From: Candidatus Buchananbacteria bacterium
GTDB taxonomy: Bacteria > Patescibacteriota > Patescibacteriia > 2-01-FULL-39-33
Length of the DNA: 37,905 nt
Direction of reading: 5' to 3'
Assembly: GCA_017992755.1 (NCBI GenBank)
Contig: JAGONZ010000001.1
Location: 1-37,905, forward strand
The notes below the pieces were generated by a model. The model saw only the letters and a list, made by a program, of their open reading frames with translations, was not told the origin of the DNA and did not search any database. Made by a program: the position numbers and the translations under genes. Every line of letters starts with the position of its first letter. Positions within the stretch are counted from its first letter, which is position 1. Shown in pieces: positions 7,306-12,200 of the stretch.

Positions 7306-8644
7306 AGTTATTTTTCCGTTTGCAGACTTTCTTTATATTCTGCAGCTCGAAGAATATGACTCGAAGCGTTACCTTCACTGGTTACCGCGATTTTTTTGGC
7401 GCCGGAATTTTCAGCGGCGCGATCATGTTGTGTACACACAGCGAATTAAAAGTGTGTTGCTTGTTACCATTGGTTTGTTGTTAATCGTGACTCTGATTTC
7501 ATGGCATTTTATTGGACTCGGTTGGATTGCAGTTGCAGCTGTCTCAATAATATTCATTCCGGCATATATTCTGGCGGCCAATATTTTATTGTCGCCGTGG
7601 TATCGGTATCTAAAGCACGTTTTATTTGCTCGTGCCGCAGCCAAGATTCGCAATCAGGGCACAGACTTGAAAGTAATTGCGGTTGCTGGTAGTTACGGCA
7701 AGACCACGACCAAGAACTTCATCGATCAACTTGTTCGGTATCACCATCGCACTCAAATGATCCCGGGTAATATTAATACTCCATTGGGGATTGCTCACTG
7801 GATAATGACAAAATTACAGCCAGGCACAACATTACTAATCGTGGAGATTGATGGACATAGTCGCCGGGAGATGATTCAAAGCGCTCGGATGGTAACTCCT
7901 GATATTGCGGTTATCACTAATATCGGTGATCAACATCTCGAACGATTCGGATCAGTATTGAAACTCAAAGAGGCGTTACAGGAAATATTTATTAATGCTA
8001 AACCAACAGCCGATCTAATTTGTGATAGTGAGACAGCCCAGCAAATACCAACATTGGCAGTAGCCGGAAAGAAACTCCAGGTGCTTGATATAAACACTGA
8101 AATATCATATCAAGGCAAATCACTTGCAGAGATCGAGTTGTCAGCATCTAATCTTATTAATCTGCAGTTGGCCTTGGCTGTGGCAGAAATTCTCAATATT
8201 CCGCACCACATAGTTAGTGACACTATCCAGCAATTAGAGCTACCGGGACGACGACAAAAAGTGTCTCAAATGCTAGGTTATGAAGCTATTGATGACTCAT
8301 ATAATATTAGTAGCACTACTGCTCGTGCTGGCCTGGCTCAAGCTCGTATCATTGCCGATGCCGCTCATAAGAAACTGTTAGTAATCACGGCCGGTATTCC
8401 CGAGCTTGGGCCACAGAACCTTGATGGTAATATTATTTTGGGTAAAGAACTAAAAAGCACCGCTGATCACATTGCGGTGCTCGGGAGCGTGTTTGCAGCT
8501 GACCTTACTACCGGCATCGCTGATGAAACCAAGTTTACACAGTATACTGATTATCAAACCATGGCGACACAGCTCCATGAAAAATTTGACCCCGCCACCT
8601 GGTTCTTGCTTGTTCAGCCAGAGCTTGGTGATTTGTACTATTAG
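7298..8644 (+). CDS. murF: Membrane-anchored MurF-like ligase
   Basis: From the GTG at 7298 the protein is 448 residues. It resembles UDP-MurNAc-tripeptide--D-Ala-D-Ala ligase (MurF), which adds the dipeptide to the peptidoglycan precursor. The Mur-ligase P-loop GSYGKTTT lies at about 132-139, with the metal-binding IVEIDGHSRREM and the ITNIGDQHLERFGS signature further on. The usual N-terminal UDP-binding domain is absent; instead there are two transmembrane segments at about 52-98. The start is uncertain: ATGs at 7250 and 7274 are in frame but overlap the hydrolase more. The gene ends tail-to-tail with ddl, overlapping by 4 nt, so the two ligases for the D-Ala-D-Ala step are convergent neighbours. 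Confidence 0.75.
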   Translation: MFKVIFPFADFLYILQLEEYDSKRYLHWLPRFFWRRNFQRRDHVVYTQRIKSVLLVTIGLLLIVTLISWHFIGLGWIAVAAVSIIFIPAYILAANILLSPWYRYLKHVLFARAAAKIRNQGTDLKVIAVAGSYGKTTTKNFIDQLVRYHHRTQMIPGNINTPLGIAHWIMTKLQPGTTLLIVEIDGHSRREMIQSARMVTPDIAVITNIGDQHLERFGSVLKLKEALQEIFINAKPTADLICDSETAQQIPTLAVAGKKLQVLDINTEISYQGKSLAEIELSASNLINLQLALAVAEILNIPHHIVSDTIQQLELPGRRQKVSQMLGYEAIDDSYNISSTTARAGLAQARIIADAAHKKLLVITAGIPELGPQNLDGNIILGKELKSTADHIAVLGSVFAADLTTGIADETKFTQYTDYQTMATQLHEKFDPATWFLLVQPELGDLYY

Positions 8645-9777
8645 GATCGAATAAACTTTTCGACGATGTCGGATTGATAATCAAGACCCATGCTTGCCGC
8701 CGTTTGCGCGGCGGTGACCGCTTCTTCAATCAGGTCAGTGATTTGTTGTTTGAAAGGAATGCCAGAGGCTTCCCAAAGATAAAACGCCATTGATCCAGGA
8801 ATCGAGTTGATCTCGGTCAGGTATAGTGTGCCATCGGGCGTTTTCATGAAATCAATTCGGACCATCCCACGACACCGGCAAGCACTAAACGCTCGTTTAG
8901 CTGTCTCTTGGATTTGGAGTTTGAGTTTAGGCGATATCTTGGCGGGCAATTCTCGAGAGAGCGAGGCCATACCATTACTATTTGTTTTCTTGCCACCGCG
9001 CTCATATTTATCGGCAAAACTTAGAATTTGGTCATGTGAAATTGGTTGTTCAATCTCACTCGCTTCAAGTTTTCCATTAATCAACCTGACAGCGCAATTA
9101 TATTCAATAAATTCTGGAAGATATTTTTCAACCAATATCTCTGAATCAAGCTGGGACGCAGTCAGGAGCTTTTTTTCGAGCTCAATGGCGGTTGTCGCCA
9201 CTTCAATACCGATACTCGAGCCTAGGTGCACGGGCTTAATAATTACTGGTAGACCCAACGTGTCGATAACACGCTTGATAGCAAGTTCTGTCTTTGTCAG
9301 CTCTGAGCTATACAGACTAAGGCCAGTAACAGTACGAATATCGTGAGTGGCTAGCACGTCCTTGGTTAGCTTTTTATTGAGGGTGATTGCGGCTGCTTCA
9401 ACACCGACGGAGGTGAAAGCAATATGGAGTGATTCAAGTAATCCTTGAATTGCCCCCGATTCACCAGTACCACCATGCAAAGCGAGAAAGACGGCATACG
9501 GGTATTGTTTTTTGGTGAGCGGGCCTGGAATTTTAATGTAGCCGCCGCGTATGTCGGTTCCAAAAACGATTGATTTTCGCGATGTTGATAGGAAATCCTT
9601 CTTTGATTTGAGCTTAGGTAGTAACCGATACTCACCTTTTTTAGTTAGGTAAATGACTAGCGGTTCGTAGTGTGCGGTATCAATATTTTCGAATACCTGC
9701 AGCCCGGTGATGATTGAGACTTCATGTTCCGGCGAGGTGCCACCACAGATAATTAGGATCTTTTTTCGCGGGTTCAT
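8641..9777 (-). CDS. ddl: D-alanine--D-alanine ligase
   Basis: This 378-residue ATP-grasp enzyme joins two D-alanines for peptidoglycan. Visible motifs are IICGGTSPEHEVS at the N-terminus, HGGTGESGAIQG (family HGxxGEDGxxQG, here with Ser for Asp), KPVHLGSSIG in the ATP-grasp domain, and EINSIPGSM, the metal- and substrate-binding E.N..PG motif. I start at 9777 rather than the ATG at 9822, because 9777 lies 1 nt after the SET gene's stop and places the first strand correctly. It is the third gene of the thrS operon. Confidence 0.9.
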   Translation of the reverse strand: MNPRKKILIICGGTSPEHEVSIITGLQVFENIDTAHYEPLVIYLTKKGEYRLLPKLKSKKDFLSTSRKSIVFGTDIRGGYIKIPGPLTKKQYPYAVFLALHGGTGESGAIQGLLESLHIAFTSVGVEAAAITLNKKLTKDVLATHDIRTVTGLSLYSSELTKTELAIKRVIDTLGLPVIIKPVHLGSSIGIEVATTAIELEKKLLTASQLDSEILVEKYLPEFIEYNCAVRLINGKLEASEIEQPISHDQILSFADKYERGGKKTNSNGMASLSRELPAKISPKLKLQIQETAKRAFSACRCRGMVRIDFMKTPDGTLYLTEINSIPGSMAFYLWEASGIPFKQQITDLIEEAVTAAQTAASMGLDYQSDIVEKFIRS

Positions 9778-9778
9778 A

Positions 9779-10195
9779 TCAAGAAGTCTTTTTCTCGCGA
9801 CACTTCTCACACTTGCAACCATTTGGCTTCACGCAATGGTCTTCCCAATATTCTTTTCCGTAGTGATACGTAATTTCTTCACCAGGTTTAATCTTTCGCT
9901 TGGCCATGATAAACACGCGCTGTTTGCGAATTTCGGGTTCGGCGTTGGGTCGACATGAGTGATTGATGTAGCGAGCGGTGTTTGATCGCGCTTGGCCATC
10001 GATCGTAATCTTCGAATTAATCCCAAATAAATATTTGCTGCGCGAGGTGTAGTGTTCTTCGTCGCTAATGACACGGCCAACGTACTCAATAATACACGCG
10101 CCTTTAGGAATTATTTCTTCAGCGAACAGACCTAAACCCGAGAGGCCGCGTTTGACTTTGAGTTTGAAATCTCCAGGGATAAATTTAGATGACAT
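9779..10195 (-). CDS. SET-domain lysine methyltransferase with post-SET cysteines
   Basis: The 138 residues form a minimal SET domain that transfers methyl groups from SAM to protein lysines. Motifs in order are GLGLFA (20-25), IEYVG (36-40), RYINHSCRPN (75-84, the pseudoknot and SAM-binding core) and EEITYHYG (106-113). A post-SET zinc motif follows, with Cys121, Cys127, Cys129 and Cys132. All catalytic elements look intact. It sits 2 nt after thrS and 1 nt before ddl, so it is cotranscribed with both. The target is unknown; a ribosomal or translation protein is a reasonable guess from context. Confidence 0.85.
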   Translation of the reverse strand: MSSKFIPGDFKLKVKRGLSGLGLFAEEIIPKGACIIEYVGRVISDEEHYTSRSKYLFGINSKITIDGQARSNTARYINHSCRPNAEPEIRKQRVFIMAKRKIKPGEEITYHYGKEYWEDHCVKPNGCKCEKCREKKTS

Positions 10196-10197
10196 GG

Positions 10198-11934
10198 CTA
10201 CTGACGGTTAGTAATCTCAAGGGTGAGATTGGCGATGAAGTCACTTGTTGCTAAAGCACCCAAGTCACCTTCACCACGTTTGCGGACAGCAACCGTGCCA
10301 GCTTCAACTTCTTTTTCACCGACGACAAGGATGTAAGGAGTCTTTTGTTGTTCAGCGTTACGAATGCGTTTGCCCAAAGTTTCGGCGCTGTTATCAAGTT
10401 CAACGCGGATAGCGGCGGCTTTGAGTTCCTTGGTAATCTTTTGAGCGTACTCATCGAATTTCTCCGATACTGGAATCACAACAGCTTGTACTGGCGAGAG
10501 CCACAAGGGGAAGACACCGGCATAGTGCTCGATCAAGAAAGCAAAGGTGCGTTCTAATGAACCAATAGCTGAACGATGAATCATTACCGGTCGTTTCTTT
10601 TGGCCATCCTGATCGATGTACTCGATATCAAATTTTTCAGGCAATAGGAAATCAATTTGTGCTGTGAAAAGTGTATCTTCTTTGCCATTAGCATTCTTCG
10701 CCTGCACATCAATCTTCGGTCCATAAAAGGCCGCCTCATCTTCAGCTTCAATGTAGTCAATACCAACTTCATCTAGGGCTGTCTTCATCATGCTCTCAGC
10801 TTTATTCCAGAGCTCGTCGTTAGGATAATATTTTTCTTTGTTATTAGGATCGCGCTTTGAGAATCGATAGCTTACAATTTGATCAAGTCCCAATCCGCGC
10901 ATGCCAGCTTGAATCAAGGCACATACTTGCTTGAATTCATCTTTTAAGCCTTCGGGAGTGACGAAGATATGCGCATCAGTGAGTTGGAATTTACGAACAC
11001 GGATCATTCCCATAAGTTCACCAGACTTTTCGTATCGATTGTAATCAGCAATTTCTGCATAGCGAATTGGCAAATCACGGTAACTCCAAGCGCGGCGCTG
11101 GAACATGCGAATATGGTGCGGGCATGCCATTGGGCGTAGGTAAAATAGATCGCCGTCCATATCGATCGGGGCATACATATTGCTAGCATAGTGCTCCAAA
11201 TGACCTGAAGTTTTATACAAAGCTTCAGCACCAAGATACGGCGTTGAAACATGCTCGTAGCCATATTGGCGTTCAAGTTCTCGAGTAAAATTCTCAAGTT
11301 CAAACTTAATAGCAGTACCTTTCGGCGTCCACATTGGCAATCCTTGACCTACTTGTTCATCGATGAAATACAAATCTAGCTCTTTGCCAAGTTTTTTGTG
11401 ATCTCGTTTCTCAGCTTCTTCGCGCTGCACCAAAAACGCATCCAATTCTTCTTTAGATTCAAATGCTAAGCCGTAAATGCGTGTGAGCATCGGATTCTTT
11501 TCATCGCCGCGCCAATATGCACCCGCTACGCGATCGAGCTTGAACGCATCGGCATTGATTGCTTTCGTTTCATCAACGTGGCCACCGCGGCAGAGATCAG
11601 TAAACTGACCTGAAGTATAGAGGGTAATCTTTTCACCCTTGCTTTCGATCTCATCAATCAATTCTAATTTGAATTGATTGCCAGCAAACTTCTCGCGCGC
11701 TTCAGCCGCCGAAACTTCGACACCTTCAAACGTTTTCCAATGCTTTAAAATTTGCTTCATCCGTTTTTCAATCTTCGGCAATTCTTTATCCGAAATCGGC
11801 GTTCCAAATTGGAAATCATAATAAAAACCATTCTCGATCGCTGGACCGATGGTTGGTTTGGTGTCTGGATACAGTTCGAGAATTGCAGCTGCGAGCAGGT
11901 GAGCGAGTGAGTGGCGAAGATGATCGATATTCAT
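10198..11934 (-). CDS. thrS: Threonyl-tRNA synthetase lacking the TGS domain
   Basis: The 578-residue class II synthetase attaches threonine to tRNA-Thr. It begins directly in the editing domain (RHSLAHLLAAA, with the HxxxH metal site, then DLCRGGH). The catalytic core follows, with RPMACPHHIRMF (zinc Cys and motif 2 region), DAHIFV, and GSLERTFAFLIEH (motif 3). The anticodon-binding domain closes the protein (VQAVVIPVSE to the end). Relative to the approximately 640-residue E. coli enzyme, the N-terminal TGS domain is missing. The ATG at 11934 has no clear Shine-Dalgarno and lies about 60 nt after the T-box terminator. It heads the operon thrS-SET-ddl. Confidence 0.95.
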   Translation of the reverse strand: MNIDHLRHSLAHLLAAAILELYPDTKPTIGPAIENGFYYDFQFGTPISDKELPKIEKRMKQILKHWKTFEGVEVSAAEAREKFAGNQFKLELIDEIESKGEKITLYTSGQFTDLCRGGHVDETKAINADAFKLDRVAGAYWRGDEKNPMLTRIYGLAFESKEELDAFLVQREEAEKRDHKKLGKELDLYFIDEQVGQGLPMWTPKGTAIKFELENFTRELERQYGYEHVSTPYLGAEALYKTSGHLEHYASNMYAPIDMDGDLFYLRPMACPHHIRMFQRRAWSYRDLPIRYAEIADYNRYEKSGELMGMIRVRKFQLTDAHIFVTPEGLKDEFKQVCALIQAGMRGLGLDQIVSYRFSKRDPNNKEKYYPNDELWNKAESMMKTALDEVGIDYIEAEDEAAFYGPKIDVQAKNANGKEDTLFTAQIDFLLPEKFDIEYIDQDGQKKRPVMIHRSAIGSLERTFAFLIEHYAGVFPLWLSPVQAVVIPVSEKFDEYAQKITKELKAAAIRVELDNSAETLGKRIRNAEQQKTPYILVVGEKEVEAGTVAVRKRGEGDLGALATSDFIANLTLEITNRQ

Positions 11935-11985: not shown

Positions 11986-12166
11986 AAACAAAAACTCCCG
12001 TCACAAATACATATCAAAGATACATACTTGGGACGAGAGCCAATCTCCCGCGGTTCCACCCAGTTTTCCCGCCGTTGGCGGGACACTCTTTCGACAACTT
12101 AGTGCCAGTTGGCAACCCTCCGCCAGCTGGCGGAGAGGTAAGCGGTTGGTGGCCGCTTCAATCGTT
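11986..12166 (-). promoter_or_regulatory. Threonine T-box riboswitch (ultrashort stem I)
   Basis: Read on the minus strand, TGGGTGGAACCGCGG (about 12049-12063) is the T-box consensus, with the tRNA-end-binding bulge TGGA. Near the 5' end, AGCGG/CCGCT (12153-12157 with 12141-12145) forms a 5-bp hairpin whose 7-nt loop contains ACC, a Thr codon, followed by A. Two further GC-rich hairpins lie between. An antiterminator can form with ACTGGG/CCCAAGT around the bulge and GCGGGAG/CTCTCGT above it. The competing terminator pairs 12032-12039 with 11995-12002 and is followed by a T run (11986-11994). Uncharged tRNA-Thr should stabilise the antiterminator and switch on thrS-SET-ddl. Confidence 0.9.
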
Positions 12167-12172
12167 ACCTGT

Positions 12173-12200
12173 AGTATAATAATTTCTAGGATAAATGCAA
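12173..12200 (-). promoter_or_regulatory. Promoter of the thrS operon
   Basis: On the minus strand TTGCAT (12195-12200), 16 bases, then TATACT (12173-12178). The predicted start near 12166 places the specifier hairpin within about 10 nt of the transcript's 5' end. Confidence 0.65.

Follow-up and report, generated by a model that had tools for sequence, protein, structure and literature searches.

A threonine T-box upstream of thrS in Candidatus Buchananbacteria with a probable junction-type decoding domain

T-box riboswitches have been divided into at least four classes according to the architecture of stems I and II (PMC10482949). Those acting on transcription generally require a long stem I with an elbow-binding module, which grips the tRNA elbow and so allows binding while the polymerase is still short of the terminator (PMC7583486, PMC10482949). 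In the Class III ileS T-boxes, exemplified by Nocardia farcinica, stem I has a K-turn at its base, stem II contains an S-turn, and a IIA/B pseudoknot is present; these T-boxes mostly control translation (PMC10482949, PMC10651847), and their specifier loops comprise 5–6 nt (PMC10482949). In an early survey, most T-boxes came from Firmicutes and Actinobacteria, whereas Chloroflexi, Deinococcus, and Proteobacteria contributed only a few (PMC2494555). Our literature search found no paper linking T-box riboswitches to Patescibacteria or Parcubacteria, and nothing relevant on T-boxes with an ultrashort stem I or in candidate phyla.

Identity of the thrS leader and its gene context

We analyzed a window of 37,905 nucleotides from Candidatus Buchananbacteria, which the NCBI taxonomy places within the Patescibacteria/Parcubacteria group. 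An initial annotation had proposed a threonine T-box controlling thrS. The covariance-model search that it suggested identified RF00230 (T-box) as the best Rfam match to the leader, at window positions 12170–12026 on the minus strand, with 42.1 bits and an E value of 1.7e-8 over the whole 776-kb genome, where it is the sole T-box match. A default Rfam scan is silent at the leader because this score lies well under the RF00230 gathering score of 93 bits, which is a threshold set by the curators and not a biological feature. The whole leader folds better than shuffled sequences (z −5.0) and is located 92 nt upstream of thrS. It shares with RF00230 stem III, an AA spacer, an antiterminator with a UGGN bulge, a terminator that uses one of the antiterminator strands, a codon-like specifier, and a synthetase gene downstream, whereas it lacks the long stem I and places its specifier hairpin inside a junction closed by a helix termed P1. 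The T-box at the thrS leader is real, and the proposed ACC hairpin, antiterminator, terminator, and UGGA bulge were all found where the initial annotation had put them, on the minus strand. A second T-box candidate, at G000:C45 (GGATGGAACCGCG), was rejected as a chance near-match to the bulge motif inside a comEC-like gene.

To collect homologous leaders, we trained a covariance model, R1, on five thrS leaders of this type; RF00230 had detected some T-box in 24 of 57 relatives. R1 matched in 145 of the 381 genomes of the class, in some cases to the antiterminator alone. Among the fully examined R1 hits, 95 of 98 lie upstream of a ThrRS gene, a linkage that is independent of the model, as the thrS gene was no part of the search. 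The final set comprises 99 leaders (alignment A5, model R2), which share the layout [P1]-GAUUG-[hairpin with ACC]-[hairpins]-CUAA-[P1′]-stem III-UGGAACC.

The gene downstream of the leader encodes a threonyl-tRNA synthetase of 578 amino acids (10198–11934, minus strand; Pfam tRNA_SAD, tRNA-synt_2b, and HGTP_anticodon). This ThrRS begins at the second additional domain, and Pfam reports no N-terminal TGS domain. On the same strand, 2 nt after thrS, follows a gene for a SET-domain protein of 138 amino acids (9779–10195; Pfam SET, E 1.1e-24), which is overlapped, as called, by ddl, encoding a d-Ala-d-Ala ligase of 393 amino acids (8641–9822; Pfam Dala_Dala_lig_N and _C). The initial annotation treated thrS-SET-ddl as an operon. 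The three genes are present, and their spacing alone suggests that they may be co-transcribed in the window genome. A Pfam search of six same-family relatives, at partial coverage and with some of the downstream ORFs giving no match, found neither SET nor ddl after thrS; the proposed operon is therefore local. In relatives, thrS is followed by an HD-domain gene (L276 and L278) or by a Trp-repressor-like gene and HisRS (L281, genome G006). At two loci (L280 in G008 and L281 in G006), a GNAT acetyltransferase gene is situated between the T-box and thrS.

Antiterminator, terminator, and tRNA partner

The 3′ half of the leader, on the minus strand throughout, contains the elements expected of a T-box acting on transcription. 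Stem III (12067–12083; UCCCGCC-AAC-GGCGGGA), defined by the RF00230 alignment, is flanked by AAGAGUG on its 5′ side and by AA on its 3′ side, and 95.3% of its cells are paired in the homologues. The antiterminator (12029–12062) consists of helices A1 and A2, identified by the RF00230 alignment, folding, and covariation, and carries the T-box bulge UGGA (12055–12058, within UGGAACC at 12058–12052), whose expected partner is the tRNA end U73-C-C-A. According to the fold, an intrinsic terminator spans 12039–11995, with its U tract beginning at 11994 (11990–12039 in all). Folded alone, the antiterminator UGGGUGGAACCGCGGGAG...CUCUCGUCCCA reaches −11.7 kcal/mol, and the terminator CUCUCGUCCC...GACGGGAG-UUUUU reaches −25.4 kcal/mol (z −7.3 versus shuffles). 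Because CUCUCGUCCC is common to both, the two structures are mutually exclusive, as had been proposed from the sequence. A terminator drawing on the 3′ strand of the antiterminator was detected by a strict test in 88 of the 99 homologues versus 18 of 99 when the downstream DNA was shuffled, and several of the 11 homologues failing this test show a terminator by eye.

A terminator before thrS would also be compatible with ribosome-mediated attenuation through a threonine-rich leader peptide. However, no leader ORF with threonine runs is present in the 250 nt upstream, and the absence of a suitable ORF refutes this explanation, which would in addition leave UGGA and the conserved helices unaccounted for; we regard it as barely conceivable.

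The identity of the predicted tRNA partner follows from two elements. The specifier codon ACC (12148–12150), followed by A at 12147, is the complement of the tRNA-Thr anticodon GGU, and the synthetase gene downstream is thrS. All 99 homologues have ACC, and in all 99 the next base is a purine; since the search models were seeded with ACC-bearing leaders, the conservation of ACC is partly built in, and leaders specific for other amino acids may have escaped detection, whereas the linkage to thrS is not affected by the seeding. Loss of the loop codon in relatives had been named in advance as an observation that would speak against a T-box, and the codon proved to be conserved. The A at 12147 could pair with U33 of the tRNA, a contact also made in known T-boxes. 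Directly 5′ of ACC, 73 of 99 homologues have U, whereas the window has C; where present, this U could add a pair with A37 of the tRNA. The bulge reads UGGAACC in 93 of 99 homologues and UGGACCC in 3 more, so that UGGA occurs in 96 of 99.

From the bulge, the initial annotation had predicted a tRNA-Thr with U at position 73. ARAGORN found tRNA-Thr(GGU) and tRNA-Thr(CGU) in the genome, and the discriminator is U73, as both end in ...GGC-U before the CCA position; the prediction thus holds for tRNA-Thr(GGU) and likewise for tRNA-Thr(CGU), so that the second refuting observation named by the initial annotation, a discriminator incompatible with UGGA, did not materialize either. Of the remaining tRNAs examined, only those for Cys and Gly have U73, as read from the acceptor stems. 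Together, ACC and UGGA therefore single out tRNA-Thr(GGU).

These data agree with the original annotation of a threonine T-box that precedes thrS and acts on transcription: the RF00230 match, the fit of ACC to GGU, U73, and the terminator all point the same way, and the leader most likely senses uncharged threonine tRNA. We also considered that ThrRS itself might bind the leader and exert protein feedback on thrS, as in E. coli, where the thrS operator is a tRNA mimic bound by threonyl-tRNA synthetase. The nearly invariable position of the leader upstream of thrS would suit such feedback, as would the finding of the junction in threonine versions only. The loop, however, presents the codon ACC, where a mimic would have the anticodon, and the UGGA bulge, stem III, and the strand common to antiterminator and terminator are hallmarks of T-boxes, which makes direct binding by ThrRS highly improbable.

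Architecture of the decoding domain

The 5′ half of the leader (minus strand) departs from the known classes. Its specifier hairpin, P2 (12140–12158; AAGCGG-CCACCAA-CCGCUU), is defined by pairing and covariation: in the homologues, 97.4% of its cells are paired, all 5 of the modelled pairs vary on both sides, and the loop comprises 7–9 nt. The initial annotation correctly placed ACC in the loop of this hairpin and gave it 5 bp; it has 6 bp. Two further hairpins are visible in the sequence: P3 (12118–12135; CUCCGCC-AGCU-GGCGGAG) and P4 (12103–12114; UGCC-AACU-GGCA). P4 lies directly 5′ of the junction motif CUAA (12099–12102), and at its position 91.2% of the cells are paired in the first model, with 5 of 5 pairs varying on both sides. 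On the other side of P2, the motif GAUUG occupies 12159–12163. Both motifs are conserved: GAUUG is exact in 78 of 99 homologues, with AAUUG in 9 more, and CUAA is found in 75 of 99, with CCAA in 10.

In the homologues, the strand 5′ of the specifier hairpin pairs ~35 nt later, beyond one or two hairpins and CUAA. In the window, which was aligned to a model containing P1, the two strands are GGUAAC (12164–12169) and GUUGUC (12093–12098), and two of the six pairs are G-U. In alignment A3, which was made by a model with P1 unpaired, the covariation of P1 over five pairs was 0.539, a value reached in 0 of 500 shuffles, versus 0.244 after shuffling, and the score of P1 is lowered because some A3 rows misplace CUAA. 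Shifting the partner strand gave a covariation of at most 0.109. A permutation test yielded 4.30 of 6 pairs versus 2.94 ± 0.10, with a maximum of 3.32 among 2000 permutations. After refitting (R2, A5, 99 rows), 85% of the cells are paired and 6 of 6 pairs vary on both sides, figures that are descriptive only, as P1 was part of the fitted model. The alignment rows are related by descent, an objection that the slide control and the failure of an alternative helix answer in part. This alternative is a stem AGGUAA/UUACCU enclosing the specifier hairpin; it suits only the window sequence and shows no covariation in relatives.

Because the 5′ strand pairs downstream of the hairpins, the specifier hairpin comes to lie inside a junction closed by P1. 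Predicted folds of the interval between P2 and CUAA contain two helices in 65 of 99 homologues and one in 30, and the domain is therefore mostly a four-way and sometimes a three-way junction; in a few homologues, such as L237, there is too little space for junction hairpins. The comparative data thus favor a three- or four-way junction, closed by P1, in which the specifier hairpin is flanked by GAUUG and CUAA. The term "ultrashort stem I" captured the short hairpin with its apical specifier but overlooked the covarying closing helix (12169–12164 with 12098–12093), and the likeness to actinobacterial ileS leaders was not borne out, as K-turn and S-turn signals are nearly absent.

A –10-like sequence with overlapping TATTAT and TATACT is located at 12173–12181. 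An automatic scan reported no minus-strand promoter because the –35 element is weak. Across the family, a TATAAT-like hexamer (5 of 6 matches) occurs no more than 20 nt from the RNA 5′ edge in 76 of 98 loci, compared with 15–28 of 98 in more distant 20-nt bins. The closeness of this hexamer to P1 suggests that the RNA most likely begins at or near the 5′-terminal base of P1 and contains no hidden long stem I.

Compared by their descriptions, none of the four published classes fits this leader family. It resembles Class I (B. subtilis tyrS type) in acting by transcription termination through an antiterminator-terminator switch, but there is no room for a long stem I with a distal double T-loop, as only a few nt separate the –10-like hexamer from the start of P1. 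Class II (B. subtilis glyQS) is likewise transcriptional and has no S-turn stem II, whereas glyQS is glycine-specific, with a long stem I and a single-stranded linker for stem II (PMC10482949). Class III is the nearest, sharing the short specifier hairpin, the apical codon, and the lack of an elbow-binding module. The junction family differs in P1, GAUUG/CUAA, the near absence of the S-turn, and its control by termination, with terminators in at least 88 of 99 homologues as opposed to the mostly translational Class III.

An ordinary Class III-type T-box, with a short stem I, a separate stem II, and a IIA/B pseudoknot, placed on a transcriptional platform would also have its specifier in a small apical loop, and the two hairpins that follow are placed as stem II and IIA would be. 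Moreover, true short-stem T-boxes with K-turn and S-turn exist in related genomes (L038, L040, and L042). The contiguous stem that such a design would have directly below the specifier hairpin shows no covariation in the homologues (0.188 versus 0.186 shuffled). The K-turn signal, a GA just 3′ of the hairpin, was found in only 7 of 99 homologues, and an S-turn-like signal (AGUA plus GAA) in 1 of 99. A IIA/B-type pairing, CAACU/AGUUG, can be drawn in the window; we consider it less likely than P1, since across the family its 3′ strand covaries with the RNA 5′ end as part of P1. A Class III T-box is thus improbable here, and we favor the junction closed by P1.

In the mechanism that we propose, the transcript would start at about P1, which would close a junction holding P2 with its loop CCACCAA, P3, and P4, with GAUUG and CUAA lining it. 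ACC and the next A would pair with the anticodon GGU and U33 of tRNA-Thr. When this tRNA is uncharged, its U73-CCA end would pair with UGGA and hold the antiterminator, so that the polymerase reaches thrS; the 3′ end of charged tRNA-Thr would not fit, and the terminator would form. In other T-boxes, an elbow-binding module in stem I or an S-turn in stem II does the work that the junction would take over here. It is very probable that the leader is a tRNA-Thr-sensing T-box that acts through transcription termination and whose decoding domain has a new architecture.

Distribution and significance

Among the matches inspected, ~95 of the 381 genomes of the class, about a quarter, have a leader of the junction type; this count refers to the leaders that were read individually. 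A phylum-wide sample of 380 genomes contained only three strong members outside the class (L253, L254, and L255; 70–76 bits), each of them preceding thrS. Across 36 genomes from other groups, chiefly Bacillota, Chloroflexi, and Bacteroidota, the best score was 51.8 bits, and the top matches inspected proved to be ordinary S-turn T-boxes. Most true members score 55–100 bits with R2, and one (L248) scores 49.8 bits, so the ranges touch.

Other T-box designs were observed in the phylum. Three leaders upstream of thrS (L258, L262, and L272) have the T-box discriminator domain and a different 5′ domain (GAGAAAAAGCC...GGCUGAAAGC-like), which indicates several decoding-domain designs for thrS. Within the same class, L032–L037 are long-stem T-boxes, four of them above the Rfam cut-off, so that the class contains long as well as short designs. 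Two short-stem leaders, L038 and L042, precede genes for class I aminoacyl-tRNA synthetases; they have GUC (Val) in the loop, a K-turn-like base, and an S-turn, and terminators follow. They combine decoding of the Class III type with a transcriptional platform. L040 (G017:C6:33384-33536) is a short-stem transcriptional T-box with a K-turn-like base and an S-turn stem II; its loop CUAACAG reads AAC (Asn), and the gene downstream is AspRS-like with a GAD domain, as might be expected if this AspRS were non-discriminating and able to charge tRNA-Asn as well. With the K-turn and S-turn signals of L038, L040, and L042, both forms coexist in Patescibacteria. One genome (G062, bacterium isolate WY2.bin139) has six T-box matches (L149, L153, and L155–L158), many for its size of 1.3 Mb.

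The sequence comparisons suggest that the junction family breaks the rule that transcriptional T-boxes generally need a long stem I. It probably represents a fifth architectural class of T-box, in which a junction replaces the elbow-binding module and the S-turn for fast transcriptional sensing of tRNA-Thr in many Patescibacteria. About 100 apparently transcriptional T-boxes with no elbow module, and with the S-turn nearly absent, suggest another route to a fast tRNA sensor of ~140 nt, a compact system in which its minimal requirements may be studied. They would form a well-populated patescibacterial branch of the T-box family that the Rfam cut-off has missed.
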